This document shows positions 5,057-62,957 of a DNA stretch of 64,000 nucleotides, one piece after another. The notes below the pieces were generated by a model, which was not told where the DNA came from, made no database searches, and saw only the letters and a list, made by a program, of their open reading frames with translations. The first letter of the stretch is position 1. Every line of letters begins with the position of its first letter. Source of the stretch: Haliclystus octoradiatus (Eukaryota; Cnidaria; Staurozoa; Stauromedusae; Haliclystidae); NCBI GenBank assembly GCA_916610825.1, contig OU744452.1, forward strand, positions 12,752,110-12,816,109. Direction: 5' to 3'. The position numbers were made by a program, and so were the translations under genes.

Positions 5057-5225
5057 TCAAACTTCCTCGTAACGATGTCCACAATTAGAATGTCTACTAC
5101 CTTTACAACTGTGCTCCGGTGAATCGAATGAATCGTATATTTGCGTCCAATCAACAGTTGATGGTCTCACAAGACCAAAAAATGAGAAGTGAAAGAAATT
5201 AGCAATATTCTGAATAATACCATCG
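5057..5225 (-). CDS. ZDHHC17: ZDHHC17 coding exon 19 (C-terminal tail and stop)
   Basis: Acceptor TCATTTTTAG. Encodes [20 protein letters not shown] and [12 protein letters not shown], matching human NIIDFFEF, CGLFRP and VDWTRQY. Ends ..HRYEEV then TGA. Confidence 0.95.
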
Positions 5226-36082: not shown

Positions 36083-36974
36083 ATTATTCAAGATAACCAA
36101 GATACCTCATTATTTTATCTATCTATCTTTTTGACAATCATAGATATGGATGATAGACAATGTCATGTTAGTAGACATATAGTACACAGCTGAGCTGTAG
36201 AGTGTAGACGATACCAATATGGCCCAAGGTTTGGTCCATGGTTTGGTCCATGGTTTGGTCCTATCCTTTTATGATTTCACCATATGTTTTGACCGTAAAC
36301 CCGATCACAGCAAGCCTCAGGAAAGGAGTACAAATAACAACACAAGACGGAATCATTTCTAATTATCTCATAATATTATGCAGAATATGTATCTAGGTAT
36401 CGTTACTATCTATTTTGCAAATTTGCATGTATGTAAAAAACCTATAAATGTTGAATAATTATCTAAAAAGTAATATAAAATAATAGCTTCACAAATAACT
36501 ATATCTTAGAATACATGTTTTTAGATCAATCATCGCTGATCTTTGTGCTGATTGGCTTATTGGCTACCATATTGGAATGAAATGTTGCGTATTAATCGTT
36601 AATGGATATTTTATATTTACTTAAAATTCTTAGTTCCAGCTGACAAATGAAAATGCTTTGCAATTATTATCAGTATGAGGGATATAATTTAATTCGTTCA
36701 CTATATATAGTTGTGCCGTCAAATATTGGAATCCATTTTCTTAATTAAATACATTTATTGCTATTGGAAACTTGTATTTAATTGATAAATTAAATCATAT
36801 GTAGTGAGCTACGTATGCCTTCCATTTATTTCTATTGAACTTGAATCGATTCCCTGAAATTGAAATATAAATTTTAATGAATGTATACAGTAGAACAAAA
36901 TAAAAGAGTAAAAAAGAAAGGTAAAAAGCAATTAATATAGAAAACGCGGGAAACCGCACAAGGTAAAAACAAAC

Positions 36975-37933: not shown

Positions 37934-38155
37934 CTACTTTACCTCATTTCTGAATGACTTCAAATTGGATTTATTATATTTCGCTCTTGGTCCGCGGTTT
38001 TCTTGAATCATTTCTGTGATCTGATCCAACTCGTATATCCCTTGCGAGCCTTCAAGACTATCAAAGCATGGATACTCTTCCAAATTTGCTGAATACCGTT
38101 GGATGTTAACTACAGATGCACGCGGGTAACGTCTTTTGTATTTTTTAATTGATCT
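37934..38155 (-). CDS. Mucin exon 3: cytoplasmic tail and stop
   Basis: Acceptor AAATTTTAG in phase 0. Starts RSIKKYKRRYPRASVVNIQR, directly after the membrane helix, and includes EYPCFDSLEGSQGIYELDQI. Ends ..SFRNEVK then TAG. The GAG|GTAAAG near the end could also serve as a donor, which would extend the tail elsewhere. Confidence 0.8.
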   Translation of the reverse strand, partial: RSIKKYKRRYPRASVVNIQRYSANLEEYPCFDSLEGSQGIYELDQITEMIQENRGPRAKYNKSNLKSFRNEVK

Positions 38156-41100
38156 CTAAAATTTATGCAAAGGACACAACATTATACATAATCCATTGTA
38201 GGCCTATATGACCTATACTAACTACAATGTATGAGCTATATTCTGCTATTATCGATTTATTTGTAAGCATTTTGGCTGTGATCTAATGTAATGAGGGGTG
38301 TTAACTCTGTGGAGGTACTGCTGAATTCTTGTATTCTTGCAATTCTCAAGTCCAGGGCAAACAGCAGCAATTTTGATGCAACATATCTGTTTTTGTCTGA
38401 CGCGTGGTTTTCGTGTTTTGAAAGACCGCCAAACGGACCCGACATTCTGAAGACTTTTCAAGAAGATGCCATGGAGAGGTCACAACATCGAAAGGATTCG
38501 TTAAATTACGCAAAATGGTTTACCAAGCCGTTCAATCGAAAAAATCCTTGGAAAATGGTTGATGGCCATCAAACACAATTCCACAAATAAAATACACAAT
38601 CCAAAACGTCAGACAAAATTGAAAGAGTGACTAAACGACTAGAATTTTGAAGGATTTGAAAGTTGTCGTCCTTTCCCTAGCACTTTATGGCTAGGGCCTG
38701 CTATTGTCAGAGCCACAAGGTAATAAGTTTGCAAATCATTAGTTTTCAGTTTACACAAAAGTTTGATTGAAGTTAATGATTTGTCAATAAACAATATATA
38801 AGCTCATTGAGATAACTTGGACCTAGTAGTAAATCAAGATTGGAACAACAGTGGAACCTCAAAATAACAGTAAGCTTAAATAGGTGCATAAATTGACCAA
38901 TATAATACAGGCTATTATATATAAATTATATACAAGGTTGATTAAATAGCAAATACTATTTTAGACATTGTAAGAGTGACAACTATAGACAGGTAACCGG
39001 AAAAGAAATTAGTCTACGTTGCTAGTTGATGTGATGAGATACAACAATCACTCGGAAGCATTGAAGTCATTTCATGCGAGCATTCAGAAAACAGGCAAAT
39101 GCAATATATCAAGTTATCAATGTTTTTGTTATCCGGAGAACATTTGGTAGGCTGTTGAAGGTACTGTATTATTAATTTAGAATAAACCAAATCTGAATAC
39201 AGTCAAATCTGTTGTGACAGTTTCTCTCCTCTATTCATTAACCACATGTCTATAGTGATCACTCCAGCAATATCTAAAAGAGTATTTTTTTATTTTATTG
39301 AATCAACCCTGTATATAAAGGCTACATGTATATAATGGTCAATTTATGTATCTCTTTCATATCTGGACGTTATAATGTACAGATTTCACTGTATGCATTT
39401 TCTATTGCCAATTGCTTATTGTGCACTCATAAAACTCAAGACTTATAAATAAATATAACAAAGGCATACAATTGTATAGAATTGTATTGTTGAATAGATA
39501 GTATTATGTTACTAAAATTAATAATCTAAATTGTATTATTATATTTAATTAGGTTGGATACATCAATGTTGTCACAAATACTGAAATACTGTACCATCCT
39601 TAAAATAATTTGAACTTTTAAAGTCGGTCACCTATACAATATAACACTTTCAGCCTAATAGTCGTAGACCAACTTGTCGAATGGGATTTTTCCAAATGGA
39701 TTGTCTTGTCTCAAACTTAATGGTGACTGGAACAAATAGAACTTTTCGAAGTGGGCTACAAGACACACATTTTCAAAAAAAAATAGTTGCGGCTTTTCAC
39801 GCGATTTCCATGCGATGATTTCATCCGATCAAAAACAATATCACACGATTTTAAAGTGGCCGGACGAAATCACGCGAATTTCAAGTGAGTATCACGCGAT
39901 ATTCCAAGTGTTTTTCATGTGTCTCGAGTTCATAGTGCAAAAGACATGTATGTATATAATGGTCAATTTATGTATCTCTTACATATCTGGACGTTATAAT
40001 GTACAGATTTCACTGTATGCATTTTCTTATGCCAATTGCTTATTGTGCACTCATAAAACTCAAGACTTATAAATAAATATAACAAAGACATACAAAAGAC
40101 AGTTATATTTACCCTTTGTATCAGCACAACCAGCAATGCTATAAGAAACAATGTAACAATTGCTATCAATACTGCAATCAACCACATTGGAACTTTTTCA
40201 TTTGAGAGATCAACTGAGCCAACAGTTACGGATTTAACAGAGAATGTATTCTTCACAATGGGAAAATGATCAAGAAAATTATCTTCCAATGCCACTACAG
40301 TTTTTTTTTCGACATTACTTTCAATAACTTTTGAATCTGAACCTGCTTCATTTTCATTAAATATAATTTCATAATCTGCAACAACACTGCCTGAGGATAA
40401 ACGTGTTATCACAACGCGAACAAATCCTTCAAGTTTAATATAGGCACGTGTAAGAGCTGCTTCCAAGTCAAATTTGATTTCAATGTATTGAGTTGAAGAA
40501 ACATCTTCCAATTCAGATGTAAAATTTATTGCTAATGAAACAACAGCTTTCACAACTACACGTCTGGCTTTCGGTGGAATAGGTGGGTAAGACTCATCTT
40601 CATAAAAGAAAGAATTGGAAATAACTGGGACAGGACCAAAGGAACCGTCTTCCAATTCAGTATTCATTTTGCTTTTCAAAATATCTTTAAGTTCAGACTT
40701 CCCCATTTCTATTGCTTGTGCACTGTATATAGCTGAGAATACTGTGATTGTCTTCCACCTGTCTTCACCATCTTTAAATTGCACAATTTCATAAGAGACA
40801 AGTCCACCAATGCCCTCCAGTATTGTAAGTAACACATGAGATACTTTGTCTGTTTCTTCCTTATATCTCCTTGATGACTTATCAAGCAGTTTCTCTTCAA
40901 AAGTGGAATTAAGACTGAATCTTGCTTTAATGTTGATCAAATCATCAATTGGACGGGTAATTGGCATAATACTAGATGTAACTGGAATAATTGAAGGGGT
41001 TGACAGAGATATTGATTTGGATAAAATTGATATTGGCGTTGAGGTACCAGTGAAGGCTAAAATTGTTGTGCTTCTGATTAAATCTATTGTTGATAAATCT

Positions 41101-44100
41101 AATACATCAGATGTCACTGTGGAATAGAAACTACTTGATAATTCTCCAGTCAAAGGTGTTGTTGCAGAGCCCACTTTAGATGATATTGTAGGATAGTGAC
41201 TACTTGATGGATCTGCTGTCACAGTTGTTGGTACAACCAGCACTTCAGTTGATGTTGTAGGATAGTGACTACTTGATGGATCTGCTGTCACAGTTGTTGG
41301 TACAACCACCACTTCAGTTGATGTTGTAGGATAGTGACTACTTGATGGATCTGCTGTCACAGTTGTTGGTACAACCACCACTTCAGTTGATGTTGTAGGA
41401 TAGTGACTACTTGATGGATCTGCTGTCACAGTTGTTGGTACAACCACCACTTCAGTTGATGTTGTAGGATAGTGACTACTTGATGGTTCTGCTGTCACAG
41501 TTGTTGGTAGAACCACCCCTTCAGATGATGTTGTAGGGAGGTGACTACTTGATGGTTCTGCTGTCACAGTTTTTGGTAGAACCACCCCTTCAGATGATGT
41601 TGTAGGGAGGTGACTACTTGATGTATCTGCTGTCACAGTTGTTGGTACAACATCCACTTCAGTTGATGTTGTAGGATAGTGACTACTTGATGGTTCTGCT
41701 GTCACAGTTTTTGGTAGAACCACCCCTTCAGATGATGTTGTAGGGAGGTGACTACTTGATGGTTCTGCTGTCACAGTTGTTGGTACAACATCCACTTCAG
41801 ATGATGTTGTAGGATAGTGACTACTTGATGGTTCTGCTGTCACAGTTTTTGGTAGAACCACCCCTTCAGATGATGTTGTAGGGAGGTGACTACTTGATGT
41901 ATCTGCTGTCACAGTTGTTGGTACAACATCCACTTCAGATGATGTTGTAGGATAGTGACTACTTGATGGTTCTGCTGTCACAGTTTTTGGTAGAACCACC
42001 CCTTCAGATGATGTTGTAGGGAGGTGACTACTTGATGTATCTGCTGTCACAGTTGTTGGTACAACATCCACTTCAGTTGATGTTGTAGGATAGTGACTAC
42101 TTGATGGTTCTGCTGTCACAGTTTTTGGTAGAACCACCCCTTCAGATGATGTTGTAGGGAGGTGACTACTTGATGGTTCTGCTGTCACAGTTGTTGGTAC
42201 AACATCCACCTCAGTTGATGTTGTAGGATAGTGACTACTTGATGGATCTGCTGTCACAGTTGTTGGTACAACCACCACTTCAGTTGATGTTGTAGGATAG
42301 TGACTACTTGATGGTTCTGCTGTCACAGTTGTTGGTAGAACCACCCCTTCAGATGATGTTGTAGGGAGGTGACTACTTGATGGTTCTGCTGTCACAGTTT
42401 TTGGTAGAACCACCCCTTCAGATGATGTTGTAGGGAGGTGACTACTTGATGTATCTGCTGTCACAGTTGTTGGTACAACATCCACTTCAGTTGATGTTGT
42501 AGGATAGTGACTACTTGATGGTTCTGCTGTCACAGTTTTTGGTAGAACCACCCCTTCAGATGATGTTGTAGGGAGGTGACTACTTGATGTATCTGCTGTC
42601 ACAGTTGTTGGTACAACATCCACCTCAGTTGATGTTGTAGGATAGTGACTACTTGATGGTTCTGCTGTCACAGTTTTTGGTAGAACCACCCCTTCAGATG
42701 ATGTTGTAGGGAGGTGACTACTTGATGTATCTGCTGTCACAGTTGTTGGTACAACATCCACTTCAGATGATGTTGTAGGATAGTGACTACTTGATGGTTC
42801 TGCTGTCACAGTTTTTGGTAGAACCACCCCTTCAGATGATGTTGTAGGGAGGTGACTACTTGATGGATCTTCTATCACAGTTGTTGGTACAACATCCACT
42901 TCAGTTGATGTTGTAGGATAGTGACTACTTGATGGTTCTGCTGTCACAGTTTTTGGTAGAACCACCCCTTCAGATGATGTTGTAGGGAGGTGACTACTTG
43001 ATGTATCTGCTGTCACAGTTGTTGGTACAACATCCACTTCAGATGATGTTGTAGGATAGTGACTACTTGATGGTTCTGCTGTCACAGTTTTTGGTAGAAC
43101 CACCCCTTCAGATGATGTTGTAGGGAGGTGACTACTTGATGTATCTGCTGTCACAGTTGTTGGTACAACATCCACTTCAGTTGATGTTGTAGGATAGTGA
43201 CTACTTGACGGATCTGTTGTCACAGTTGTTGGTACAACCACCCCTTCAGATGATGTTGTAGGATAGTGACTACTTGATGGTTCTGCTGTCACAGTTGTTG
43301 GTACAACATCCACCTCAGTTGATGTTGTAGGATAGTGACTACTTGATGGATCTGCTGTCACAGTTGTTGGTACAACCACCACTTCAGTTGATGTTGTAGG
43401 ATAGTGACTACTTGATGGATCTGCTGTCGCAGTTGTTGGTACAACCACCACTTCAGTTGATGTTGTAGGATAGTGACTACTTGATGGATCTGCTGTCACA
43501 GTTGTTGGTACAGCCACCATTTCAGTTGATGTTGTAGGATAGTGACTACCTGATGGATCTGCTGTCACAGTTGTTGGTACAACCACCCCTTCAGATGATG
43601 TTGTAGGATAGTGACTACTTGATGGTTCTGCTGTCACAGTTGTTGGTACGACCATCCCTTCAGATGATGTTATAGGGAGGTGACTACTTGATGGATCTGC
43701 TGTCACAGTTGTTGGTACAACCACCACTTCAGTCGATGTTGTAGGATAATGACTACTTGATGGATCTGCTGTCACAGTAGTTAATACAACCACCACTTCA
43801 GTTGATGTTGTAGGATAGTGACTACTTGATGGATCTGCTGTCGCAGTTGTTGGTACAACCACCACTTCAGTTGATGTTGTAGGATAGTGACTACTTGATG
43901 GATCTGCTGTCACAGTTGTTGGTACAACCACCACTTCAGTTGATGTTGTAGGATAGTGACTACTTGATGGATCTGCTGTCGCAGTTGTTGGTACAACCAC
44001 CACTTCAGATGATGTTGTAGGATAGTGACTACTTGATGGTTCTGCTGTCACAGTTTTTGGTAGAACCACCCCTTCAGATGATGTTGTAGGGAGGTGACTA

Positions 44101-47100
44101 CTTGATGGATCTGCTGTCACAGTTGTTGGTACAACATCCACTTCAATTGATGTTGTAGGATAGTGACTACTTGATGGATCTGTTGTCACAGTTGTTGGTA
44201 CAACCACCCCTTCAGATGATGTTGTAGGATAGTGACTACTTGATGGTTCTGCTGTCACAGTTGTTGGTACAACATCCACCTCAGTTGATGTTGTAGGATA
44301 GTGACTACTTGATGGATCTGCTGTCACAGTTGTTGGTACAACCACCACTTCAGTTGATGTTGTAGGATAGTGACTACTTGATGGATCTGCTGTCGCAGTT
44401 GTTGGTACAACCACCACTTCAGTTGATGTTGTAGGATAGTGACTACTTGATGGATCTGCTGTCACAGTTGTTGGTACAGCCACCATTTCAGTTGATGTTG
44501 TAGGATAGTGACTACCTGATGGATCTGCTGTCACAGTTGTTGGTACAACCACCCCTTCAGATGATGTTGTAGGATAGTGACTACTTGATGGTTCTGCTGT
44601 CACAGTTGTTGGTACGACCATCCCTTCAGATGATGTTATAGGGAGGTGACTACTTGATGGATCTGCTGTCACAGTTGTTGGTACAACCACCACTTTAGTC
44701 GATGTTGTAGGATAATGACTACTTGATGGATCTGCTGTCACAGTAGTTAATACAACCACCACTTCAGTTGATGTTGTAGGATAGTGACTACTTGATGGAT
44801 CTGCTGTCACAGTTGTTGGTACAACCACCCCTTCAGATGATGTTGTAGGATAGTGACTACTTGATGGTTCTGCTGTCACAGTTGTTGGTACAACCACCCT
44901 TTCAGATGATGTTGTAGGATAGTGACTACTTGATTGATCTTCTGTCACAGTTGTTGGTACAACCACCCCTTCAGATGATGTTGTAGGATAGTGACTACTT
45001 GATGGTTCTGCTGTCACAGTTGTTGGTACAACCACCCCTTCAGATGATGTTGTAGGGAGGTGACTACTTGATGGATCTGCTGTCACAGTTGTTGGTACAA
45101 CCACCACTTCAGTTGATGTTGTAGGATAGTGACTACTTGATGGATCTGCTGTCGCAGTTGTTGGTACAACCACCACTTCAGTTGATGTTGTAGGATAGTG
45201 ACTACTTGATGGATCTGCTGTCACAGTTGTTGGTACAACAACCCCTTCAGAGGATGTTGTAGGGAGGTGACTACTTGATGGATCTGCTGTCACAGTCGTT
45301 GGTACAACCACCACTTCAGTTGATGTTGTAGGATAGTGACTACTTGATGGATATGCTGTCACAGTTGTTGGTACAACCACCACTTCAGTTGATGTTGTAG
45401 GATAGTGACTACTTGATGGATCTGCTGTCACAGTTGTTCGTACAGCCACCACTTCAGTTGATGTTGTAGGGAGGTGACTACTTGACGGATCTGCTGTCAC
45501 AGTTGTTGGTACAACCACCCCTTCAGATGATGTTGTAGGATAGTGACTACTTGAATGTTCTGCTGTCACAGTTGTTGGTACAACCACCCCTTCAGATGAT
45601 GTTGTAGGGAGGTGACTACTTGATGGATCTGCTGTCACAGTTGTTCGTACAGCCACCACTTCAGTTGATGTTGTAGGATAGTGACTACTTGATGGATCTG
45701 CTGTCACAGTTGTTGGTACAACCACCACTTCAGTTGATGTTGTAGGATAGTGACTACTTGATGGATCTGCTGTCACAGTTGTTGGTACAACCACCACTTC
45801 AGTTGATGTTGTAGGATAGTGACTACTTGATGGATCTGCTGTCACAGTTGTTGGTACAACCACCCCTTCAGATGATGTTGTAGGATAGTGACTTCTTGAT
45901 GGTTCTGCTGTCACAGTTGTTGGTAGAACCACCCCTTCAGATGATGTTGTAGGGAGGTGACTACTTGATGGATCTGCTGTCACAGTTGTTGGTACAACCA
46001 CCACTTCAGTTGATGTTGTAGGATAGTGACTACTTGATGGATCTGCTGTCGCAGTTGTTGGTACAACCACCACTTCATTTGATGTTGTAGGATAGTGACT
46101 ACTTGATGGATCTGCTGTCACAGTTGTTGGTACAACCACTCCTTCAGATGATGTTGTAGGATAGTGACTACTTGATGGTTCTGCTGTCACAGTTGTTGGT
46201 ACAACCACCCCTTCAGATAATGTTGTAGGGAGGTGACTACTTGATGGATCTGCTGTCACAGTTGTTGGTACAACCACCACTTCAGTTGATGTTGTAGGAT
46301 AGTGACTACTTGATGGATCTGCTGTCACAGTTGTTGGTACAACCACTCCTTCAAATGATGTTGTAGGATAGTGACTACTTGATGGTTCTACTGTCACAGT
46401 TGTTGGTACAACCACCCCTTCAGATGATGTTGTAGGGAGGTGACTACTTGATGGATCTGCTGTCACAGTTGTTGGTACAACCACCACTTCAGTTGATGTT
46501 GTAGGATAGTGACTACTTGATGGATCTGCTGTCACAGTAGTTGGTACAACCACCACTTCAGTTGATGTTGTAGGATAGTGACTACTTGATGGATCTGCTG
46601 TCACAGTTGTTGGTACAACCACCACTTCAGTTGATGTTGTAGGATAGTGACTACTTGACGGATCTGCTGTCACAGTTGTTGGTACAACCACCACTTCAGT
46701 TGATGTTGTAGGATAGTGACTACTTGATGGATCTGCTGTCACAGTTGTTGGTACAACCTCCCCTTCAGATGATGTTGTAGGATAGTGACTACTTGATGGT
46801 TCTGCTGTCACAGTTGTTGGTACAGCCACCCCTTCAGATGATGTTGTAGGGAGGTGACTACTTGATGGATCTGCTGTCACAGTTGTTGGTACAACCACCA
46901 CTTCAGTTGATGTTGTAGGATAGTGACTACTTGATGGATCTGCTGTCACAGTTGTTGGTACAGCCACCATTTCAGTTGATGTTGTAGGATAGTGACTACC
47001 TGATGGATCTGCTGTCACAGTTGTTGGTACAACCACCCCTTCAGATGATGTTGTAGGATAGTGACTACTTGATGGTTCTGCTGTCACAGTTGTTGGTACG

Positions 47101-50100
47101 ACCATCCCTTCAGATGATGTTATAGGGAGGTGACTACTTGATGGATCTGCTGTCACAGTTGTTGGTACAACCACCACTTCAGTCGATGTTGTAGGATAAT
47201 GACTACTTGATGGATCTGCTGTCACAGTAGTTAAAAAAACCACCACTTCAGTTGATGTTGTAGGATAGTGACTACTTGATGGATCTGCTGTCGCAGTTGT
47301 TGGTACAACCACCACTTCAGTTGATGTTGTAGGATAATGACTACTTGATGGATCTGCTGTCACAGTTGTTGGTACAACCACCCCTTCAGATGATGTTGTA
47401 GGATACTGAATACTTGATGGATCTGCTGTCACAGTTGTTAATACAACCACCACTTCAGTTGATGTTGTAGGATAGTGACTACTTGATTGATCTGCTGTCT
47501 CAGTTGTTGGTACAACCACCACTTCAGTTGATGTTGTAGGATAGTGACTACTTGATGGATCTGCTGTCACAGTGGTTGGTACAACCACCACTTCAGTTGA
47601 TGGTGTAGGATAGTGACTACTTGATGGTTCTGCTGTCACAGTTGTTGGTACAACCACCCCTTCAGATGATGTTGTAGGGAGGTGACTACTTGATGGATCT
47701 GCTGTCACAGTTGTTGGTACAACCACCACTTCAGTTGATGTTGTAGGATAGTGACTACTTGATGGATATGCTGTCAGAGTTGTTGGTACAACCACCACTT
47801 CAGTTGATGTTGTAGGATAGTGACTACTTGATGGATCTGCTGTCACAGTTGTTGGTACAACCACCACTTCAGTTGATGTTGTAGGATAGTGACTACTTGA
47901 TGGATCTGCTGTCACAGTTGTTGGTACAACCACCCCTTCAGATGATGTTGTAGGGAGGTGACTACTTGATGGATCTGCTGTCAAAGTTGTTGGTACAACC
48001 ACCACTTCAGTTGATGTTGTAGGATAGTGACTACTTGATGGTTCTGCTGTCACAGTTGTTGGTACAACCACCCCTTCAGATGATGTTGTAGGGAGGTGAC
48101 TACTTGATGGTTCTGCTGTCACAGTTGTTGGTACAACCACCCCTTCAGATGATGTTGTAGGGAGGTGACTACTTGATGGATCTGCTGTCAAAGTTGTTGG
48201 TACAACCACCCCTTCAGATGATGTTGTAGGGAGGTGACTACTTGATGGATCTGCTGTCAAAGTTGTTGGTACAACCACCCCTTCAGATGATGTTGTAGGA
48301 TAGTGACTACTTGATGGTTCTGCTGTCACAGTTGTTGGTACAACCACCCCTTCAGATGATGTTGTAGGGAGGTGACTACTTGATGGATCTGCTGTCAAAG
48401 TTGTTGGTACAACCACCACTTCAGTTGATGTTGTAGGATAGTGACTACTTGATGGATCTGCTGTAACAGTTGTTGGTACAACCACAACTTCAGTTGATGT
48501 TGTAGGATAGTGACTACTTGATGGATCTGCTGTTGCAGTTATTGGTCCAACCACCACTTCAGTTGATGTTGTAGTATAGTGACTACTTGATGGATCTGCT
48601 GTCACAGTTTTTGGTACAACCACCCCTTCAGATGATGTTGTAGGATAGTGACTACTTGATGGTTCTGCTGTCACAGTTGTTGGTACAACCACCCCTTCAG
48701 ATGATGTTGTAGGGAGGTGACTACTTGATGGATCTGCTGTCACAGTTGTTCGTACAGCCACCACTTCAGTTGATGTTGTAGGATAGTAACTACTTGATAG
48801 ATCTGCTGTCACAGTTGTTGGTACAACCACCACTTCAGTTGATGTTGTAGGATAGTGACTACTTGACGGATCTGCTGTCACAGTTGTTGGTACAACCACC
48901 CCTTCAGATGATGTTGTAGGATAGTGACTACTTGATTGTTCTGCTGTCACAGTTGTTGGTACAACCACCCCTTCAGATGATGTTGTAGGGAGGTGACTAC
49001 TTGATGGATCTGCTGTCACAGTTGTTCGTACAGCCACCACTTCAGTTGATGTTGTGGGATAGTGACTACTTGATAGATCTGCTGTTACAGTTGTTGGTAC
49101 AACCACCACTTCAGTTGATGTTGTAGGATAGTGACTACTTGATGGATCTGCTGTCACAGTTGTTGGTACAACCACCACTTCAGTTGATGTTGTAGGATAG
49201 TGACTACTTGATGGATATGCTGTCACAGTTGTTGGTACAACCACCACTTCAGTTGATGTTGTAGGATAGTGACTACTTGATGGTTTTGCTGTCACAGTTG
49301 TTGGTACGACCATCCCTTCAGATGATGTTATAGGGAGGTGACTACTTGATGGATCTGCTGTCACAGTTGTTGGTACAACCACCACTTCAGTCGATGTTGT
49401 AGGATAATGACTACTTGATGGATCTGCTGTCACAGTAGTTAAAAAAACCACCACTTCAGTTGATGTTGTAGGATAGTGACTACTTGATGGATCTGCTGTC
49501 GCAGTTGTTGGTACAACCACCACTTCAGTTGATGTTGTAGGATAGTGACTACTTGATGGATCTGCTGTCACAGTTGTTGGTACAACCACCCCTTCAGATG
49601 ATGTTGTAGTATACTGACTACTTGATGGATCTGCTGTCACAGTTGTTAATACAACCACCACTTCAGTTGATGTTGTAGGATAGTGACTACTTGATTGATC
49701 TGCTGTCGCAGTTGTTGGTACAACCACCACTTCAGTTGATGTTGTAGGATAGTGACTACTTGATGGATCTGCTGTCACAGTGGTTGGTACAACCACCACT
49801 TCAGTTGATGTTGTAGGATAGTGACTACTTGATGGTTCTGCTGTCACAGTTGTTGGTACAACCACCCCTTCAGATGATGTTGTAGGGAGGTGACTACTTG
49901 ATGGATCTGCTGTCACAGTTGTTGGTACAACCACCACTTCAGTTGATGTTGTAGGATAGTGACTACTTGATGGATATGCTGTCACAGTTGTTGGTACAAC
50001 CACCACTTCAGTTGATGTTGTAGGATAGTGACTACTTGATGGATCTGCTGTCACAGTTGTTGGTACAACCTCCCCTTCAGATGATGTTGTAGGATAGTGA

Positions 50101-53100
50101 CTACTTGATGGTTCTGCTGTCACAGTTGTTGATACAACCACCCATTCAGATGATGTTGTAGGGAGGTGACTACTTGATGGATCTGCTGTCACAGTTGTTG
50201 GTACAACCATCACTTCAGTTGATGTTGTAGGATAGTGACTACTCGATGGATCTGCTGTCACCGTTGTTGGTACAACCTCCCCTTCAGATGATGTTGTAGG
50301 ATAGTGACTACTTGATGGTTCTGCTGTCACAGTTGTTGGTACAGCCACCCCTTCAGATGATGTTGTAGGGAGGTGACTACTTGATGGATCTGCTGTCACA
50401 GTTGTTAGTACAACCACCACTTCAGTTGATGTTGTAGGATAGTGACTACTTGATGGATCTGCTGTCACAGTTGTTGGTACAACCACCACTTCAGTTGATG
50501 TTGTAGGATAGTGACTACTTGATGGATCTGCTGTCGCAGTTGTTGGTACAACCACCACTTCAGTTGATGTTGTAGGATAGTGACTACTTGATGGATCAGC
50601 TGTCACAGTTGTTGGTACAACCACCCCTTCAGATGATGTTGTAGGATAGTGACTACTTGATGGTTCTGCTGTCACAGTTGTTGGTACAACCACCCCTTCA
50701 GATGATGTTGTAGGGAGGTGACTACTTGATGGATCTGCTGTCACAGTTGTTGGTACAACCACCCCTTCCGATGATGTTGTAGGATAGTGACTACTTGATG
50801 GTTCTGCTGTCACAGTTGTTGGTACAACCACCCCTTCAGATGATGTTGTAGGGAGGTGACTACTTGATGGATCTGCTGTAACAGTTGTTGGTACAACCAC
50901 AACTTCAGTTGATGTTGTAGGATAGTGACTACTTGATGGATCTGCTGTCACATTTGTTGGTACAACCACCACTTCAGTTGATGTTGTAGGGAGGTGACTA
51001 CTTGATGGATCTGCTGTCACAGTTGTTGGTACAACCACCCCTTCAGATGATGTTGTAGGATAGTGACTACTTGATGGTTCTGCTGTCACAGTTGTTGGTA
51101 CAACCACCCCTTCAGATGATGTTGTAGGGAGGTGACTACTTGATGGATCTGCTGTCACAGTTGTTGGTACAACCACCACTTCAGTTGATGTTGTAGGATA
51201 GTGACTACTTGATGGATCTGCTGTCACAGTTGTTAGTACAACCACCACTTCAGTTGATGTTGTAGGATAGTGACTACTTGATGGATCTGCTGTCACAGTT
51301 GTTGGTACAACATCCACTTCAGTTGATGTTGTAGGATAGTGACTACTTGATGGATCTGTTGTCACAGTTGTTGGTACAATCACCCCTTCAGATGATGTTG
51401 TAGGGAGGTGACTGCTTGATGGATCTGCTGTCACAGTTGTTGGTACAACCACCACTTCAGTTGATGTTGTAGGATAGTGACTACTTGATGGATCTGCTGT
51501 CACAGTTGTTGGTACAACCACCACTTCAGTTGATGTTGTAGGGAGGTGACTACTTGATGGATCTGCTGTCACAGTTGTTGGTACAACCACCCCTTCAGAT
51601 GATGTTGTAGGATAGTGACTACTTGATGGTTCTGCTGTCACAGTTGTTGGTACAACCACCCCTTCAGATGATGTTGTAGGGAGGTGACTACTTGATGGAT
51701 CTGCTGTCACAGTTGTTGGTACAACCACCACTTCAGTTGATGTTGTAGGATAGTGACTACTTGATGGATCTGCTGTCACAGTTGTTGGTACAACCACCAC
51801 TTCAGTTGATGTTGTAGGATAGTGACTACTTGATGGATCTGCTGTCACAGTTGTTGGTACAACATCCACTTCAGTTGATGTTGTAGGATAGTGACTACTT
51901 GATGGATCTGTTGTCAGAGTTGTTGGTACAATCACCCCTTCAGATGATGTTGTAGGGAGGTGACTACTTGATGGATCTGCTGTCACAGTTGTTGGTACAA
52001 CCACCACTTCAGTTGATGTTGTAGGATAGTGACTACTTGATGGATCTGCTGTCACAGTTGTTGGTACAACCTCCCCTTCAGATGATGTTGTAGGATAGTG
52101 ACTACTTGATGGTTCTGCTGTCACAGTTGTTGGTACAGCCACCCCTTCAGATGATGTTGTAGGGAGGTGACTACTCGATGGATCTGCTGTCACAGTTGTT
52201 GGTACAACCACCACTTCAGTTGATGTTGTAGGATAGTGACTACTTGATGGATCTGCTGTCACAGTTGTTGGTACAACCACCACTTCAGTTGATGTTGTAG
52301 GATAGTGACTGCTTGATGGATCTGCTGTCGCAGTTGTTGGTACAACAACCACTTCAGTTGATGTTGTAGGATAGTGACTACTTGATGGATCTGCTGTCAC
52401 AGTTGTTGGTACAACCACCCCTTCAGATGATGTTGTAGGATAGTGACTACTTGATGGTTCTGCTGTCACAGTTGTTGGTACAACCACCCCTTCAGATGAT
52501 GTTGTAGGGAGGTGACTACTTGATTGTTCTGCTGTCACAGTTGTTGGTACAACCACCACTTCAGTTGATGTTGTAGGATAGTGACTACTTGATGGATCTG
52601 CTGTCCCAGTTGTTGGTACAACCACCACTTCAGTTGATGTTGTAGGATAGTGACTACTTGATGGATCTGCTGTCACAGTTGTTGGTACAACCACCACTTC
52701 AGTTGATGTTGTAGGATAGTGACTACTTGATGGATCTGCTGTCACAGTTGTTGGTACAACCACCACTTCAGTTGATGTTGTAGGATAGTGACTACTTGAT
52801 GGATCTGCTGTCACAGTTGTTGGTACAACCACCACTTCAGTTGATGTTGTAGGATAGTGACTACTTGATGGATCTGCTGTCGCAGTTGTTGGTACAACCA
52901 CCACTTCAGTTGATGTTGTAGGATAGTGACTACTTGATGGATCTGCTGTCACAGTTGTTGGTACAACCACCACTTCAGTTGATGTTGTAGGATAGTGACT
53001 ACTTGATGGATCTGCTGTCACAGTTGTTGGTACAACCACCACTTCAGTTGATGTTGTAGGATAGTGACTACTTGATGGATCTGCTGTCGCAGTTGTTGGT

Positions 53101-56100
53101 ACAACCACCACTTCAGTTGATGTTGTAGGATAGTGACTACTTGATGGATCTGCTGTCACAGTTGTTGGTACAACCACCCCTTCAGATGATGTTGTAGGAT
53201 AGTGACTACTTGATGGTTCTGCTGTCACAGTTGTTGGTACAACCACCCCTTCAGATGATGTTGTAGGGAGGTGACTACTTGATTGTTCTGCTGTCACAGT
53301 TGTTGGTACAACCACCACTTCAGTTGATGTTGTAGGATAGTGACTACTTGATGGATCTGCTGTCGCAGTTGTTGGTACAACCACCACTTCAGTTGATGTT
53401 GTAGGATAGTGACTACTTGATGGATCTGCTGTCACAGTTGTTGGTACAACCACCACTTCAGTTGATGTTGTAGGATAGTGACTACTTGATGGATCTGCTG
53501 TCACAGTTGTTGGTACAATCACCCCTTCAGATGATGTTGTAGGGAGGTGACTACTTGATTGTTCTGCTGTCACAGTTGTTGGTACAACCACCACTTCAGT
53601 TGATGTTGTAGGATAGTGACTACTTGATGGATCTGCTGTCGCAGTTGTTGGTACAACCACCACTTCAGTTGATGTTGTAGGATAGTGACTACTTGATGGT
53701 TCTGCTGTCACAGTTGTTGGTACAACCACCCCTTCAGATGATGTTGTAGGGAGGTGACTACTTGATTTTTCTGCTGTCACAGTTGTTGGTACAACCACCA
53801 CTTCAGTTGATGTTGTAGGATAGTGACTACTTGATGGATCTGCTGTCGCAGTTGTTGGTACAACCACCACTTCAGTTGATGTTGTAGGATAGTGACTACT
53901 TGATGGATCTGCTGTCACAGTTGTTGGTACAACTACCACTTCAGTTGATGTTGTAGGATAGTCACTACTTGATGGATCTGCTGTCGCAGTTGTTGGTACA
54001 ACCACCACTTCAGTTGATGTTGTAGGATAGTGACTACTTGATGGATCTGCTGTCACAGTTGTTGGTACAACCACCCCTTCAGATGATGTTGTAGGGAGGT
54101 GACTACTTGATGGATCTGCTGTCACAGTTGTTGGTACAACCACCACTTCAGTTGATGTTGTAGGATAGTGACTACTTGATGGATCTGCTGTCACAGTTGT
54201 TGGTACAACCACCACTTCAGTTGATGTTGTAGGATAGTGACTACTTGATGGATCTGCTGTCACAGTTGTTGGTACAACCACCACTTCAGTTGATGTTGTA
54301 GGATAGTGACTACTTGATGGATCTGCTGTCACAGTTGTTGGTACAACCACCACTTCAGTTGATGTTGTAGGATAGTGACTACTTGATGGATCTGCTGTCG
54401 CAGTTGTTGGTACAACCACCACTTCAGTTGATGTTGTAGGATAGTGACTACTTGATGGATCTGCTGTCACAGTTGTTGGTACAACCACCCCTTCAGATGA
54501 TGTTGTAGGATAGTGACTACTTGATGGTTCTGCTGTCACAGTTGTTGGTACAACCACCCCTTCAGATGATGTTGTAGGGAGGTGACTACTTGATTGTTCT
54601 GCTGTCACAGTTGTTGGTACAACCACCACTTCAGTTGATGTTGTAGGATAGTGACTACTTGATGGATCTGCTGTCGCAGTTGTTGGTACAACCACCACTT
54701 CAGTTGATGTTGTAGGATAGTGACTACTTGATGGATCTGCTGTCACAGTTTTTGGTACAACCACCACTTCAGTTGATGTTGTAGGATAGTGACTACTTGA
54801 TGGATCTGCTGTCACAGTTGTTGGTACAACCACCACTTCAGTTGATGTTGTAGGATAGTAACTACTTGATGGATCTGCTGTCACAGTTGTTGGTACAACC
54901 ACCACTTCAGTTGATGTTGTAGGATAGTGACTACTTGATGGATCTGCTGTCACAGTTGTTGGTACAATCACCCCTTCAGATGATGTTGTAGGGAGGTGAC
55001 TACTTGATTGTTCTGCTGTCGCAGTTGTTGGTACAATCACCACTTCAGTTGATGTTGTAGGATAGTGACTACTTGATGGATCTGCTGTCACAGTTGTTGG
55101 TACAATCACCCCTTCAGTTGATGTTGTAGGGAGGTGACTACTTGATTGTTCTGCTGTCGCAGTTGTTGGTACAACCACCACTTCAGATGATGTTGTAGGG
55201 AGGTGACTACTTGATTGTTCTGCTGTCACAGTTGTTGGTACAACCACCACTTCAGTTGATGTTGTAGGATAGTGACTACTTGATGGTTCTGCTGTCACAG
55301 TTGTTGGTACAACCACCCCTTCAGATGATGTTGTAGGGAGGTGACTACTTGATTGTTCTGCTGTCACAGTTGTTGGTACAACCACCACTTCAGTTGATGT
55401 TGTAGGATAGTGACTACTTGATGGATCTGCTGTCGCAGTTGTTGGTACAACCACCACTTCAGTTGATGTTGTAGGATAGTGACTACTTGATGGATCTGCT
55501 GTCACAGTTTTTGGTACAACCACCACTTCAGTTGATGTTGTAGGATAGTGACTACTTGATGGATCTGCTGTCACAGTTGTTGGTACAACCACCACTTCAG
55601 TTGATGTTGTAGGATAGTGACTACTTGATGGATCTGCTGTCACAGTTGTTGGTACAACCACCACTTCAGTTGATGTTGTAGGATAGTGACTACTTGATGG
55701 ATCTGCTGTCGCAGTTGTTGGTACAACCACCACTTCAGTTGATGTTGTAGGATAGTGACTACTTGATGGATCTGCTGTCACAGTTGTTGGTACAACCACC
55801 ACTTCAGTTGATGTTGTAGGATAGTGACTACTTGATGGATCTGCTGTCACAGTTGTTGGTACAACCACCACTTCAGTTGATGTTGTAGGATAGTGACTAC
55901 TTGATGGATCTGCTGTCACAGTTGTTGGTACAACCACCACTTCAGTTGATGTTGTAGGATAGTGACTACTTGATGGATCTGCTGTCACAGTTGTTGGTAC
56001 AACCACCCCTTCAGATGATGTTGTAGGATAGTGACTACTTGATGGATCTGCTGTCACAGTTGTTGGTACAACCACCACTTCAGTTGATGTTGTAGGATAG

Positions 56101-59100
56101 TGACTACTTGATGGATCTGCTGTCACAGTTGTTGGTACAACCACCACTTCAGTTGATGTTGTAGGATAGTGACTACTTGATGGATCTGCTGTCACAGTTG
56201 TTGGTACAACCACCACTTCAGTTGATGTTGTAGGATAGTGACTACTTGATGGATCTGCTGTCACAGTTGTTGGTACAACCACCACTTCAGTTGATGTTGT
56301 AGGATAGTGACTACTTGATGGATCTGCTGTCGCAGTTGTTGGTACAACCACCACTTCAGTTGATGTTGTAGGATAGTGACTACTTGATGGATCTGCTATC
56401 ACAGTTGTTGGTACAACCTCCACTCCAGTTGATGTTGTAGGATAGTGACTACTTGATCGATCTGCTGTCACAGTTGTTGGTACAGCCACCACTTCAGTTG
56501 ATGTTGTAGGATAGTGACTACTTGATGGTTCTGCTGTCACAGTTGTTGGTACAGCCACCACTTCAGTTGATGTTGTAGGATAGTGACTACTTGATGGTTC
56601 TGCTGTCACAGTTGTTGGTACAGCCACCCCTTCAGATGATGTTGTAGGAAGGTGACTACTTGATGGTTCTGCTGTCACAGTTGTTGGTACAGCCACCACT
56701 TCAGAGTATGTTGTAGGAAGGTCACTACTTGATGGTTCTGCTGTGACAGTTGCCACCACTTCATATGATAATGTAGGAAGGTGACTACTTGATGGTTCTG
56801 TTGTCACAGTTGTTGGTACAGCCACCACTTCAGATGATGTTGTAGGGAGGTGACTACTTGATTGATCTGCTGTCACAGTTGTTGGTACAGCTACCAATTC
56901 AGATGATGCTGTAGGGAGGTGACTACTTGATGGATCTTCTGTCACAGTTGTTGGTACAGCCACCACTTCAGATGATGTTGTGGGATAGTGACTACTTGAT
57001 GGTTCTGCTGTCAGAGATGTTTGTGCAGCCACTAATGTAGATGCAGTCCCTGATATTGTTGAATTGGCAGTAGTTTTCATTTGTTCTGAAATATGAAATG
57101 TTTAGCAATATTATATTTTTACATGTTCCTCTATATTTTGCCTCAATTCCATGAACTAAATTTGAAATGGAAGAGTTATTTTTGATTATGGCACATGAAG
57201 GGGTCACACAAATGAGCATGCGCAAAGCTCGTCCTCCTCCTCATCATCATATATTTATTCAAGCTGTGGTCAGCCTAGACTTGTTTTGACATGTTTACGT
57301 TTATCCTACGTTTATTTTTGATTATGCATGATTTGGTAAATTGATAATTTTAAGGCACAAGGCTGTGCACAGACCGTAATTCATTCATAGTCTATTTACC
57401 TATTCTTTCATGAATGAATAGCGATCTGTGACGCAGATTACAAGCACACTGTCATGATGTCTTCTTGACATCCATCTATGTTATTTGTTTGGGTCGGTTT
57501 TAATTCATGCTAATTAATTCATGGTGGACTGCTTCCCAGTCCCTCCACATGTGTCATTGTTGCGGGAAATGGAGATATATAAAAGCTATAAAATTTATCT
57601 TGATGTTTGCATTTACAGGTCTAGTTTATGTTTCTTGTGTGATTGATTTAATGATCGAAATATTACAGGGTCAAACCAAGTTGATAATTTGTCCAATTAT
57701 ATTGATGTCTATATTATTTCGAGCTAGCCTGAATTTGCATCCTAATATTTGCATTTAAGGTCATTCTTCATATACAAGAGCATTCTTCTTGATCGTTATA
57801 TATAAAATATCACTCGCTATCACTGAGTATTGATTTGTCTCATCCTGCATTGTTGATTATTACAGTTACCAGATATTGAAGCAATTAGAATGTGTTCTAT
57901 GCCATTAAACTGTAATTAGGCATTGTTTAGACACGTTTTTGAAAATGGATTTAGTCTACATGCAAGGCAATAACTATTTTGTTGAAAGGCTTTTATGTAG
58001 AACATTAGAAAAATGGGTCATCAAAAATGCTTTCAGGGTCAGTCTAGAGAAAAAAACATACATATTCACTCTAAAATATCTTTCCTCATTATATAACATA
58101 TGATAAATATGGAAATGATTCATGAGTCGGCAAATTTATTTGGAGTAAAACTCCTCTAAATTTAATAACTAATAGTAATCAACTTTTTTAGAACACTCTT
58201 CATTCAAACATTTTTTTTCTGTTTATTGAAGCAAAAGTGTACTTTGAAAATGTGATAATGGAAAAATGGGGATACCAGTTTGTCTTTTCTCAGTAATTGC
58301 GCAATTCTACTCCAACACTGAAGTTTTATGCTGCTCAAATTTTGCCATAGAATGTTGCCAGACAACACAAGTGAAGTTAAAAAGTGTTGCCACAGCAACA
58401 TTTGACATAAATAGACCTTAAATTATTTTGCTCTCATCATCGAATTTTGATTAACAAATATAACGAGCTATCCATTAACAAATTGAACGTTGGAAATGCT
58501 AACATCACGCCTGTAAGCCATGTGAAAAATCTCGGAGCTTGGTTTTACCGTTCCAAGCCGTTCCAGACCTCCTTGATTAATGTGTATTAATTTACAGACT
58601 CCGCTCAAACACCAACAACGAAAACTCAAACACCCCCTTTCAAGTTACAAATTCGTCGAACCAGCAAATATTTATTTGCATTTTATAAATTCAATGAATT
58701 CATGATTTGAGTTATTTCTGTACGAATTATACCAGTATACGAAAGAATTTTCAATTTGAGAACGTTGAGTATTTGCTGATATTTATTTTGAAAGACAAAC
58801 ATCGTAAAATAAACTGTTTTTATTAAGACATGCATGTCAATGTATCGATTTTCTTGTCACATCTCGGTTTTCAAAAAATGTGTAAGCCCTAGATTTCAAT
58901 TTGAAGGCGGTGTTGATATGTCTAATACAAATCCGTTATCAAATTGATTTTGAACTTAGCAATTGCTCGCTGATTATCTGATAACACTGTATCAAAATAA
59001 TTTAGCTGATAATACTGCAGCTCGGTTATTAAATGGATCTAGCTAGATACTCCCTAGATACTTTCAAGTTTAATAATATAATATAATATGAGGTGAACAC

Positions 59101-59842
59101 ATGTATATTGCAGTGCTCAATGTTTGTTAGACAGAGCATAATATGGAATAGACACAAAGATGAGGCAAAAGCATTTGTATGGAAAAGGCTTTTGCCTCAT
59201 CTTTGTGTCTATACTATACTTTCAAGTTTATAAATGTTGGCAGATAAGTCGTTATTTTCGAGCGCGCTCTCTTAATAATTGTCATTAGATTCTTTGGCTG
59301 GGGGGAATATTTTAGGTTCTACAATCGCAAACATTTCGAAATTATTTAATCCTACTCTATCAACAGTTCTCTCATGAAAAAGTATTATCTAAATTTTTGG
59401 CGCATAAGAACACAGATGCGTTGACAAATTAAAATGTTGACATTTTAGATGACAACCAGACATATTCAGATTTAAACTTTTTCCAAAAATCATAACTTTC
59501 AAAATTATATTTGGCACATATAGCTATATCCTGAAAACGAAAAACATGAAAATAAGCCCCTCGTGAAATATATGCTGTATATCTAGACAAGTTCTTATAA
59601 TTTCAAGTAATCCCAAGTGATTCCACGCACGTGGGAATGAAACAGAGTGCGTAAGCTCTAGCGAAATGTCGAGAAATATATATGATGCTATCCCGCTGTA
59701 AGACATCGTCTCTTTGTAAAATGCCCGAAATTAATCGTTCAAACTATTTTTACAATGCACAACTATTCTATATGAATCAAATTATTGACTTACCAAACGA
59801 AAAAAACATTGTCCATAGGACGAGTCCTATTTTTAACATCAT
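37934..59842 (-). CDS. Giant MUC1-like transmembrane mucin with about 230 tandem repeats and SEA domains (5,747 residues, 3 exons)
   Basis: Predicted cell-surface mucin. Exon 1 gives a signal peptide (MMLKIGLVLWTMFFSFG). Exon 2 gives residues 17-5674, in order: a short Ser/Thr-rich lead; about 230 repeats of 23 residues (roughly 29-5336, about 43% Ser/Thr and 13% Pro, so heavy O-glycosylation is likely); a Ser/Thr linker; SEA-like domain 1 (about 5402-5500); SEA domain 2 (about 5525-5645) with GSVVA at 5582-5586; and a transmembrane helix (about 5650-5672). Exon 3 gives a 73-residue cytoplasmic tail starting RSIKKYKRRYPR, a basic stop-transfer. Coding length 17,244 bp divides by three and both splice phases fit. 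The order matches MUC1 (signal, repeats, self-cleaving SEA, helix, tail), but nothing ties it to one vertebrate mucin. No frameshift or stop lies in the array. Confidence 0.9.
39328..39471. repeat. 144-bp direct duplication, copy 1
   Basis: About 97% identical to 39952-40095, exactly 624 bp away. Includes GGACGTTATAATGTACAGAT. Copy 2 reaches to within 17 bp of the exon 2 donor. Confidence 0.92.
39952..40095. repeat. 144-bp direct duplication, copy 2
   Basis: Second copy of 39328-39471, with about four substitutions and no net length change. Confidence 0.92.
40113..57085 (-). CDS. Mucin exon 2: 16,973-bp exon with repeats, SEA domains and transmembrane helix
   Basis: Acceptor TTCATATTTCAG at 57086-57087, donor GTAAAT after ..VVLIQR in phase 0. 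The frame is open for 5,657 codons. The first residues (EQMKTTANSTISGTASTL) carry an N-glycosylation sequon. Confidence 0.95.
40200..40562 (-). other. SEA domain 2 of the mucin with GSVVA cleavage motif
   Basis: Contains AVVSLAINFTSELEDVSSTQ, FDLEAALTRAYIKLEGFVRV and LSSGSVVADYEIIF. The G|SVVA turn (codons at 40377-40391) matches the G|SVVV self-cleavage site of MUC1-type SEA domains. About 66 residues separate it from the membrane helix, near the 58 of MUC1. The INFT site is an N-glycosylation sequon. Confidence 0.82.
40635..40931 (-). other. SEA-like domain 1 of the mucin
   Basis: Starts IKARFSLNSTFEEKLLDKSS and continues RRYKEETDKVSHVLLTILEG to YEIVQFKDGED. It shows the SEA pattern of a first strand, a helix with S..Y, and a second strand. 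It lacks a GSVVV-type site where cleavage would occur, and has an NST sequon. Confidence 0.65.
41141..57002 (-). repeat. Coding minisatellite: 69-bp unit, about 230 copies
   Basis: Each unit encodes 23 residues: PSSSHYPTTSTE, then a Val-rich stretch (usually VVVV), then PTTVTAD. The main variants are HY/HL, TSTE/TSSE, VVVV/GVVV/VDVV/GVVL, PTT/PKT and D/E before PSSS. Divergent units sit at both edges. All indels keep the frame; one unit near 56755 lacks 9 bp. Whole-block duplications at multiples of 69 bp are visible. Confidence 0.97.
57086..59793 (-). other. Mucin intron 1
   Basis: AT-rich. A possible LINE 3' end lies at 57230-57262 (CATCATCAT then ATTTATTCAAG), and a strong hairpin at 59149-59211. 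The open frames (57507-57758 plus, 58204-58401 minus) are not gene-like. Confidence 0.5.
59149..59211. repeat. Perfect 24-bp-arm hairpin
   Basis: Arms TAGACACAAAGATGAGGCAA(AAGC) and the exact inverse, with a 15-nt loop, in mucin intron 1. Confidence 0.9.
59794..59842 (-). CDS. Mucin exon 1: signal peptide
   Basis: Two adjacent ATGs open MMLKIGLVLWTMFFSF, a classic signal sequence. The exon ends in phase 1 at GTAAGT. The next codon (G|AA, Glu) is completed exactly by the exon 2 acceptor. AT-rich TATATTTATA-like sequence lies just upstream, but the transcription start is unknown. Confidence 0.82.
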
Positions 59843-61633: not shown

Positions 61634-61831
61634 TCACTTTTCAATTTTGAGCCCGTAAGGCGAGATGGTCAATTTTATGCCTTTAATTCGCTCCCAGCGA
61701 TCAATAAGTCGTTTATATAGGCACGGTTGTAGTACACTCCCAATTCCCATTATTAAAATGACTGCTGTTATCCCGGTATATGATCCTGGGGATACCTTCC
61801 ATTTCGCTTCAACGGGGTTGTTCAAATAGAA
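61634..61831 (-). CDS. Possible exon or gene relic, membrane-type
   Basis: A minus-strand frame reads FYLNNPVEAKWKVSPGSYTG, then a hydrophobic stretch (ITAVILIMGIGSVL), then RLIDRWERIKGIKL and a stop. An AG lies just upstream after a pyrimidine-rich stretch. A second open block in another frame (61326-61607, containing FLFETLLLVTSFYSTAVGRG and NLLHWHGNMTHWLH) lies directly downstream, so this could be a frameshifted pseudogene or two exons. I do not recognise the family. Confidence 0.25.
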   Translation of the reverse strand, partial: FYLNNPVEAKWKVSPGSYTGITAVILIMGIGSVLQPCLYKRLIDRWERIKGIKLTISPYGLKIEK

Positions 61832-62098
61832 CTTCAGAGGATGAACATAAAAAATGTTTCAGATCGTGAAAAAGATACCACAAATGATTTTTTTTAAAAG
61901 GAAACATATCCCTAAAATAATGAAAACTGAAATAAATGATAAGCAAAGAAAAATGGAATTTAAATGAAATAAAAATTTGTATTACGTATGAATGTATACC
62001 TCAAAAACATTTGCTGGTAAAATTTTTCTGCATTATGAAATCTCATACGCTCTAATATTTGAACGTCCCCGTATAAAATATAGAAGTTACCCCCCGTA

Positions 62099-62118: not shown

Positions 62119-62290
62119 GAGCTATTCACTTTATATTTCTTATTTTCAAGATGAAGCTTCATTACCCTGATCTGTTAGCTCTTTCATTAGAAATTTGAAT
62201 ATTTTAATTCAGATCTCTTCAAGTTTAATGTCCTACCATAACAATTCTACTACAATGAACCATTATCAATTAATGTATATATATATATAT

Positions 62291-62474
62291 AATAATAATG
62301 GTGATAGATCAAAGAAAACACATTCTTAACTGTAACTCCAAGTTTCACGCTACTGCGATCATCAGACATTTTTTTATCTATAAAAAATAAAAAACTGTCT
62401 GATGATCGCAGTAGCGTGAAACTTGGAGTTACAGTAAAGAATGTGTTTTCTTTGATCTATCACCATTATTATTA
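62291..62474. repeat. Foldback (hairpin) element, 78-bp arms
   Basis: Arms 62291-62368 and 62396-62474 are nearly perfect inverses around a 27-bp AT loop. They contain CTCCAAGTTTCACGCTACTG and GCGATCATCAGACA. Related to the 5420-5619 element. Confidence 0.93.
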
Positions 62475-62957
62475 TTTACCGCTCTGCCAAATGTTGACAT
62501 TGAGCACTATTTTGTCTGCTATTAGATAAACCTATACTTATTATATATATGCTGTATATAGCTGCTATGTATGTCTCGATTGCGCTTGCGCAAATTTGAG
62601 CACTGGCTTTGGATGTGTCTATAATATTTGCGAATACATTGCTCACTACTTCGGTAGCTTGAGCACTCTGTTACGGCACAGATGTTTTTTTCATGTTGTG
62701 AATTTTCACTGACTAACTCATCTTGACCTAGCTATAAGAGGCTAAGTCAGTCCATTGTTCACTGAGCAGTACTGATGACGGCTAATGGCCAGAGACCGTA
62801 AGTGCATGTCTGCTGCTATATAGGGCTAATTTGATTTTCAAATTTGAAATCAGCTGATCACATGTTAGTTCTGATCAAAAGAAAAGCTAATTTAATTCAC
62901 AATTCCATTGTTAAGCCTCGCTTTCATGTTTCTGCTGGTAATACCATTAATCAAGTT

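Follow-up and report, generated by a model that had tools for sequence, protein, structure and literature searches.

The locus described here lies on chromosome 7 of the stalked jellyfish Haliclystus octoradiatus (contig OU744452.1) and appears to hold a gene for a giant membrane mucin built around a long tandem array. The window, that is, the whole stretch of 64,000 nucleotides that was analysed, contained 0 N. Tandem Repeats Finder (TRF), run on the 64-kb window, placed a 69-bp array at 41171–57032 with 230.0 copies, 92% matches, and 0% indels, at a score of 26,677 compared to 1,155 for the runner-up array in the window. A previous sequence-only reading had reported a 15.9-kb array of about 230 such units at 41141–57002, which is the same array in a different register. 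The array and the other parts of the proposed gene are as follows:

59794–59842, minus strand: proposed exon 1, MMLKIGLVLWTMFFSF, putative signal peptide, ending in phase 1 at the GT donor at 59793
40113–57085, minus strand: proposed exon 2, 16,973 bp, an open frame with a short N-terminal stretch, the entire array, SEA1, SEA2, and the membrane helix
41171–57032, minus strand: 69-bp coding minisatellite, 230 units of 23 amino acids (aa), consensus DPSSSHYPTTSTEVVVVPTTVTA, from TRF, the unit list, and statistics
56739–56798, minus strand: the single short unit, 60 bp, with 3 codons lost in frame, from the unit list
40659–40922, minus strand: SEA1, degenerate, Pfam SEA 14.6 bits taken alone, E 0.037, profile positions 6–98 of 106
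40302–40529, minus strand: SEA2, canonical, Pfam SEA 40.8 bits, E 2.7e-10
40377–40391, minus strand: putative self-cleavage motif G-SVVA within SEA2, from sequence reading and alignments
40122–40178, minus strand: single transmembrane helix IAVLIAIVTLFLIALLVVL, 19-residue mean hydropathy 3.43, the next best in the protein being 1.43
37943–38155, minus strand: proposed exon 3, in phase with exon 2, encoding a cytoplasmic tail that starts RRSIKKYKRR
36809–36853, minus strand: proposed exon 4, GIDSSSIEINGRHT and a stop, with AATAAA at 36759

In codon register, the array spans 41145–57005 and comprises 230 units, all of 69 bp except for one of 60 bp. Counts of Ser plus Thr and of unit diversity took in 231 units, including one degenerate 3'-flanking unit, and 230 of them are of 23 aa. 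Each unit carried 9 to 11 Ser or Thr residues (mean 9.9) for a total of 2,287, in agreement with the earlier estimate of approximately 10 per unit and 2,300 in all. The 230 units of 23 aa comprised 100 different DNA sequences and 79 different protein sequences, the commonest protein unit being DPSSSHYPTTSTEVVVVPTTVTA with 59 occurrences.

The stop-to-stop frame that contains the array (39963–57101, minus strand, 5,712 aa) was the sole frame of at least 250 aa in the window. Its array portion had 0 stops across 5,287 codons, and the only odd unit, that of 60 bp, stays in frame, so that the earlier claim of an array free of stops and frameshifts was borne out. The other five array frames carried 225 to 479 stops each, with open stretches of at most 47 codons. 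By itself, the absence of stops is weak evidence of coding: as the unit length of 69 is divisible by 3, a single clean unit suffices for a clean array, and with 2.4 stops expected among the 85 distinct variants, the probability of finding none was about 0.09 (one variant classed as a stop lies in a doubly changed codon that reads Tyr, and no stop stands in frame). On these grounds, the array could be a noncoding minisatellite with a single frame left open by chance, or part of a dead gene. The absence of frame-breaking lengths appears to be stronger evidence than the absence of stops. It was judged against the following control:

12380–13027: noncoding 29-bp minisatellite, 22 copies, 94% matches, no long frame, from TRF

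Two of the 21 unit spacings in this array, which is of similar divergence, break the frame, each off by 2 bp, compared to 0 of the 230 units in the coding array, although the control is imperfect, being one short AT-rich locus. Variation was also reduced at Ser/Thr codons: of 2,290 Ser/Thr cells, 37 had lost the Ser/Thr, compared to changes in 378 of 2,977 cells at other sites (229 units, with the 60-bp unit omitted). In codon-change tables drawn from 228 units (excluding the last unit and that of 60 bp), 17 distinct nonsynonymous codons were observed against 60 possible single-step ones at Ser/Thr sites, and 45 against 83 at the remaining sites (Fisher P 0.002, a rough test), with synonymous variety being alike (8 of 26 at Ser/Thr sites and 11 of 31 at other sites). 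With the other five frames closed, and an intact SEA2, a helix, and an in-phase tail downstream of the array, an accidental open frame or a dead gene is very improbable.

The four-exon model joins in phase into a protein of 5,759 aa (590 kDa before sugars) with one cysteine, which is located in the tail and leaves the ectodomain cysteine-free; the splicing is inferred from sequence signals. Of the 44 in-phase ATG..GT candidates between 57085 and 64000, a single start region, that of exon 1, passed both thresholds set in our script (donor above 4 bits and hydropathy above 1.8), the two passing rows being two adjacent ATGs. Its donor scored 4.17 bits, within the best 0.4% of 3,932 GT sites. Proposed exon 2 lies between the acceptor ...TTTCATATTTCAG/AACA and the donor AAAGG/GTAAAT at 40112, and would hold the entire array within the uninterrupted 5,712-aa frame, consistent with the single exon of about 17 kb claimed earlier. 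Its donor, at 2.09 bits (top 2.2% of GT sites), scored lower than the other two. Exon 3 was among the 3 of 193 AG acceptors from 40100 to 36000 that gave at least 70 aa open, and the sole one with a basic start. Exon 4, which we added to the parts named before, is the weakest part of the model because exon 3 can stop on its own (5,747 aa). Separately, the intron directly past the donor of the giant exon contains a 146-bp direct duplication that is 97% identical (39326–39471 and 39950–40095).

The Pfam domain scan of exon 2 covered its final 334 residues (P0001), in which SEA was detected with an E-value of 1.2e-12 in two stretches, and no other Pfam domain was above its cut-off there. Of the SEA pair described previously, SEA2 was clear (40.8 bits), but SEA1 taken alone fell below the Pfam SEA cut-off (14.6 compared to 26.4 bits). 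The two domains aligned with 23% identity. In the cleavage loop of SEA1, Gly-Ser is replaced and the loop is 4 residues longer, and the self-cleavage-like motif was found in SEA2 only, where GSVVA aligned with GSIVA of ADGRF1 and with GSVIV of an SEA gene on chromosome 4. The helix starts approximately 40 residues beyond the Pfam-matched part of SEA2 and is followed by the basic start of the tail, RRSIKKYKRR; the Pfam scan of the cytoplasmic tail gave 0 matches over the cut-off.

The best PDB match of SEA2 was the SEA domain of ADGRF1 (E 1e-5), and no mucin SEA was present among its PDB sequence matches within E 10. This match would fit a locus encoding part of an adhesion G-protein-coupled receptor (GPCR)-like protein, with seven-helix exons further downstream. 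Members of adhesion GPCR group F (ADGRF) possess a GAIN domain and seven helices, whereas Pfam detected no GAIN domain in P0001, and the proposed protein has one strong helix, close behind SEA2, and then a tail and a stop. The next recognised downstream gene is ZDHHC17, and we regard a receptor at this locus as barely credible.

SEA-type membrane mucins are recognised by a region rich in proline, threonine, and serine (PTS), at least one SEA domain, and a helix with a cytoplasmic tail. The composition here was 43% Ser+Thr and 12.3% Pro, and 5,275 of the 5,558 100-aa windows of exon 2 reached 40% Ser+Thr and 5% Pro, in line with a PTS threshold published as >40% Ser+Thr and about 5% Pro (PMC9080433). 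SEA2 supplies the SEA domain, and the strongly hydrophobic helix with its in-phase tail exon would supply the anchor and the cytoplasmic part. The PTS region would lie in a single large exon, a usual arrangement but not a universal one, chicken Muc13 being different (PMC1552070); the same paper proposes as a criterion that the SEA domain be phylogenetically related to the SEA of known mucins. We read the locus, with a probability of roughly 0.8, as encoding a giant SEA-type membrane mucin in H. octoradiatus that would be cleaved at SEA2 and O-glycosylated into a surface brush. The complete membrane mucin proposed by the sequence-only reading was supported, with a hydrophobic start exon, an array exon, an SEA pair, a helix, and a tail exon standing in phase, but SEA1 is degenerate and the signal peptide is short, without an obvious cleavage site.

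Several observations weigh against a membrane mucin. The putative signal peptide is weakly hydrophobic (19-residue mean hydropathy 1.18), in addition to being short and having no obvious cleavage site by sequence reading. SEA1 alone does not reach the cut-off, and the nearest solved SEA to SEA2 is that of a receptor. The comparison of nonsynonymous with synonymous codons between Ser/Thr and other sites was not significant (Fisher P 0.26), and the substitution tests are rough in that the array units are related by copying and not independent. Valine makes up 18% of the repeats, and valine-rich repeats are unusual for a mucin. Finally, the SEA2 motif ends in Ala, not Val, the self-cleavage of MUC1 being reported to occur at GSVVV (PMC9564314).

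The valine-rich repeats would also suit a secreted or adhesive product, such as mucus or stalk glue, for which SEA2 cleavage and shedding would be the main fate instead of a standing brush. An SEA joint would permit release, and Haliclystus is described as living fixed to seaweed (PMC9975415). One strong membrane helix with a basic tail argues against this product, as does the lack of cysteines outside the tail, since a cysteine-free ectodomain speaks against disulfide-linked gels; we consider it unlikely.

As a membrane mucin, the protein would enter the secretory path, and SEA2 would cut itself between Gly and Ser during folding, with the halves held together non-covalently. Cleavage at SEA2 is probable by analogy with known SEA mucins, which are described as self-cut at G-S, with non-covalently joined halves and a glycosylated N-terminal part (PMC9578598, PMC9564314). 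Approximately 2,280 repeat Ser/Thr residues would be O-glycosylated, so that the repeats would stiffen into a brush of about 1 micrometre. Glycosylated mucins extend by approximately 0.2–0.25 nm per residue, and the 5,287 repeat residues would thus reach about 1.1–1.3 micrometres. Such a brush would protect the epithelial surface, and force or a protease opening SEA2 would shed it while the helix and tail stay in the membrane. SEA1 is most simply taken as a folded, non-cutting spacer.

The internal structure of the array suggests how its units may be kept alike. The ten longest exact internal repeats listed were 296–557 bp in length, all separated by a whole number of units (from 3 to 50), and Y-type and L-type unit classes alternated across much of the 3' part of the array. 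At the 5' edge, consensus likeness ranged over 0.88–0.97 for the eight outermost units of 23 aa, against an average of 0.956 in the middle, with the 5' edge being lower overall, whereas at the 3' edge the last unit alone dropped, to 0.81. A preprint on the human mucin pangenome describes greater motif decay at array edges in about half of mucins (PMC13345508). The exact repeats at whole-unit spacings and the edge pattern fit unequal exchange or conversion. Unequal exchange inside the exon would keep the units alike and should make exon length differ between animals, and the array is therefore probably polymorphic in length. An assembly error in the form of a collapsed array was judged unlikely because the longest exact repeat, 557 bp, is short for HiFi reads, which were reported at 68x with a quality value of 56.6 for this assembly (PMC9975415).

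The gene resembles the giant membrane mucins of vertebrates in design, a likeness that need not reflect common descent. A 'mucin1-like' protein of Actinia tenebrosa is described as a signal-PTS-SEA-transmembrane protein, and Table 2 of the same paper places it in all but four of 11 other cnidarians, the four including Hydra magnipapillata and Nematostella vectensis (PMC9080433). MUC1 and this protein share with the Haliclystus gene PTS repeats, SEA, one helix, and, in that paper's account, no EGF domain, as well as a signal, which is putative in Haliclystus. The Actinia candidates are described there with one SEA and two PTS-rich regions, whereas the Haliclystus gene, compared by described layout, has two SEA domains, 230 near-identical 23-aa units, and 5,759 aa. 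MUC16 is similar in its described lack of EGF before the helix (PMC9080433), its more than one SEA, and its very large size; it differs from the Haliclystus gene, which has two SEA domains, both following the repeats and sharing an exon with them.

MUC3A, MUC3B, MUC12, and MUC17 likewise combine a giant PTS exon with SEA, a transmembrane helix, and a tail, but they are described as carrying EGF-type domains beside SEA (PMC9080433), whereas the Haliclystus ectodomain is cysteine-free. The EGF domain that marks MUC3, MUC12, MUC13, and MUC17 was not found by Pfam in P0001, and there is one Cys in the 5,759 aa. The PTS exon of MUC3B is given as 39,267 bp (PMC9578598), the longest MUC4 allele as 27,843 bp, and MUC12 as up to 23,080 aa (PMC13345508); the Haliclystus array does not reach the length of the MUC3B exon or of the longest MUC12. 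The NIDO, AMOP, and VWD domains typical of MUC4 were not detected within P0001, where SEA alone passes the Pfam cut-off. Gel-forming mucins are marked by VWD and cysteine-rich domains, and a single Cys in the entire protein does not match them. In IMPG1 and IMPG2, the mucin part stands between SEA domains, with EGF domains after them, whereas both Haliclystus SEA domains come after the repeats. The likeness to IMPG1 and IMPG2 lies in their SEA domains, which are reported as proteolysed (PMC9478142).

Judged by titles and abstract openings, the papers found on staurozoan mucins, on cnidarian mucins with SEA domains, and on Haliclystus octoradiatus contained no account of this gene. The earlier statement that the gene matches no named gene holds, but the design itself is described in another cnidarian (PMC9080433), which makes the giant array gene less unprecedented than first scored. 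The kind is thus known, and the Haliclystus gene would be a new, large member of it by design.

We also searched the Haliclystus genome (261,861,806 bases in 33 contigs). The tail exon (exon 3) had no match elsewhere in the genome at E up to 1. With three units as query and 98 candidates scored, the repeat gave at least 95 protein matches, all in the array. No SEA paralogue was found within the 64-kb window, and SEA occurred at three places in the genome at E up to 0.01 (15 candidates scored): the array gene and two places on chromosome 4. Of the latter, that at 7.247 Mb scored 28.4 bits, above the cut-off, and that at 20.967 Mb was weak (24.2 bits, below the cut-off), with a closer look giving no result. 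Among viral contigs (30 pattern matches) and genome contigs without animal collections (52), 0 sequence relatives were confirmed. The chromosome 4 SEA at 7.247 Mb belongs to the following gene:

7238599–7249522 of contig C5 (chromosome 4), minus strand: second SEA membrane protein gene, 905-aa open frame, Ser/Thr-rich repeats, SEA, TSP1, and helix EVIIAIIVAAVGIILLAALILAC

This gene resembles the giant gene in its Ser/Thr-rich repeats, an SEA with a G-S motif (GSVIV), and one strong helix. It differs in being smaller, with diverged 144-bp repeats that are 73–78% alike, an SEA that is apparently split by introns (49.1 bits with an approximate join), and a Cys-rich piece and a TSP1 domain (1.8e-08) before the helix. 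The Cys-rich piece is EGF-like, although Pfam gave no confirmation of it, and the exon structure seems as described when read from the sequence. The presence of a second SEA gene with GSVIV in the same genome counts in favour of the membrane-mucin reading.

The locus adds a giant case from a medusozoan genome assembled to chromosome level, and the same genome holds a second SEA gene that is laid out in a related way. A broader proposal, to which we give somewhat less than an even chance, is that cnidarians have giant membrane mucins of their own, either evolved or inherited from before the bilaterians: a cysteine-free brush of about 1 micrometre would stand on a two-SEA stalk, in which SEA1, having lost cleavage, would be a spacer or force buffer and SEA2 the break point, and a recently homogenised coding minisatellite would set the height of the brush and vary between individuals. 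If transcribed, the gene would allow three ideas to be tested: that giant SEA mucins had more than one origin, that pairing a dead SEA with a live one tunes shedding, and that the length of a variable number tandem repeat sets glycocalyx height outside vertebrates.

Downstream of the mucin gene and on the same strand, the window contains exon pieces of ZDHHC17 (HIP14) at 5126–29524 (minus strand):

29524 and 19810, minus strand: ZDHHC17 ankyrin pieces, PDB ZDHHC17 match 1.4e-26
9952, 8722, and 7153, minus strand: ZDHHC17 DHHC pieces, three pieces inside one DHHC match, 1.3e-20

In the ankyrin exon, 32 of 47 residues were identical to the PDB ZDHHC17 chain by hand count on the alignment. This count, together with the mitochondrial contig C33, led us to drop a vertebrate source for the window: the first 10 kb of C33 (GC 0.38, compared to 38.3% reported for the mitochondrion of H. 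octoradiatus in PMC9975415) has two long frames on opposite strands that read as COX1 and ND5, and genetic code 4 gives Arg in them where codes 5 and 13 give Ser and Gly. Code 4 fits a cnidarian, and the opposite strands fit a medusozoan. Further pieces near 26244, 24059, 15263, 12028, and 5173 are presumably also ZDHHC17, to which we assigned them by general likeness; the 15263 piece had no Pfam match. A broken reverse transcriptase remnant, which we take to be of the non-LTR (long terminal repeat) type, was observed at 20579–21585 (minus strand), with RVT_1 (4.6e-08) in the first half and no such match in the second. Scans of the window with Rfam (at the gathering threshold) and for tRNA genes returned nothing. 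On the other side of the mucin gene, an open stretch containing ...VSPGSYTGITAVILIMGIGSVLQPCLYKRLIDRWERIKG... at about 61637–61858 (minus strand) resembles the last exon of an upstream gene, with no Pfam match and PDB matches at chance level only. An inverted repeat at 62286–62478 has 92-nt arms that are 97% complementary and 9 nt apart, and a smaller one is present at 59142–59218; both are possibly small foldback elements.

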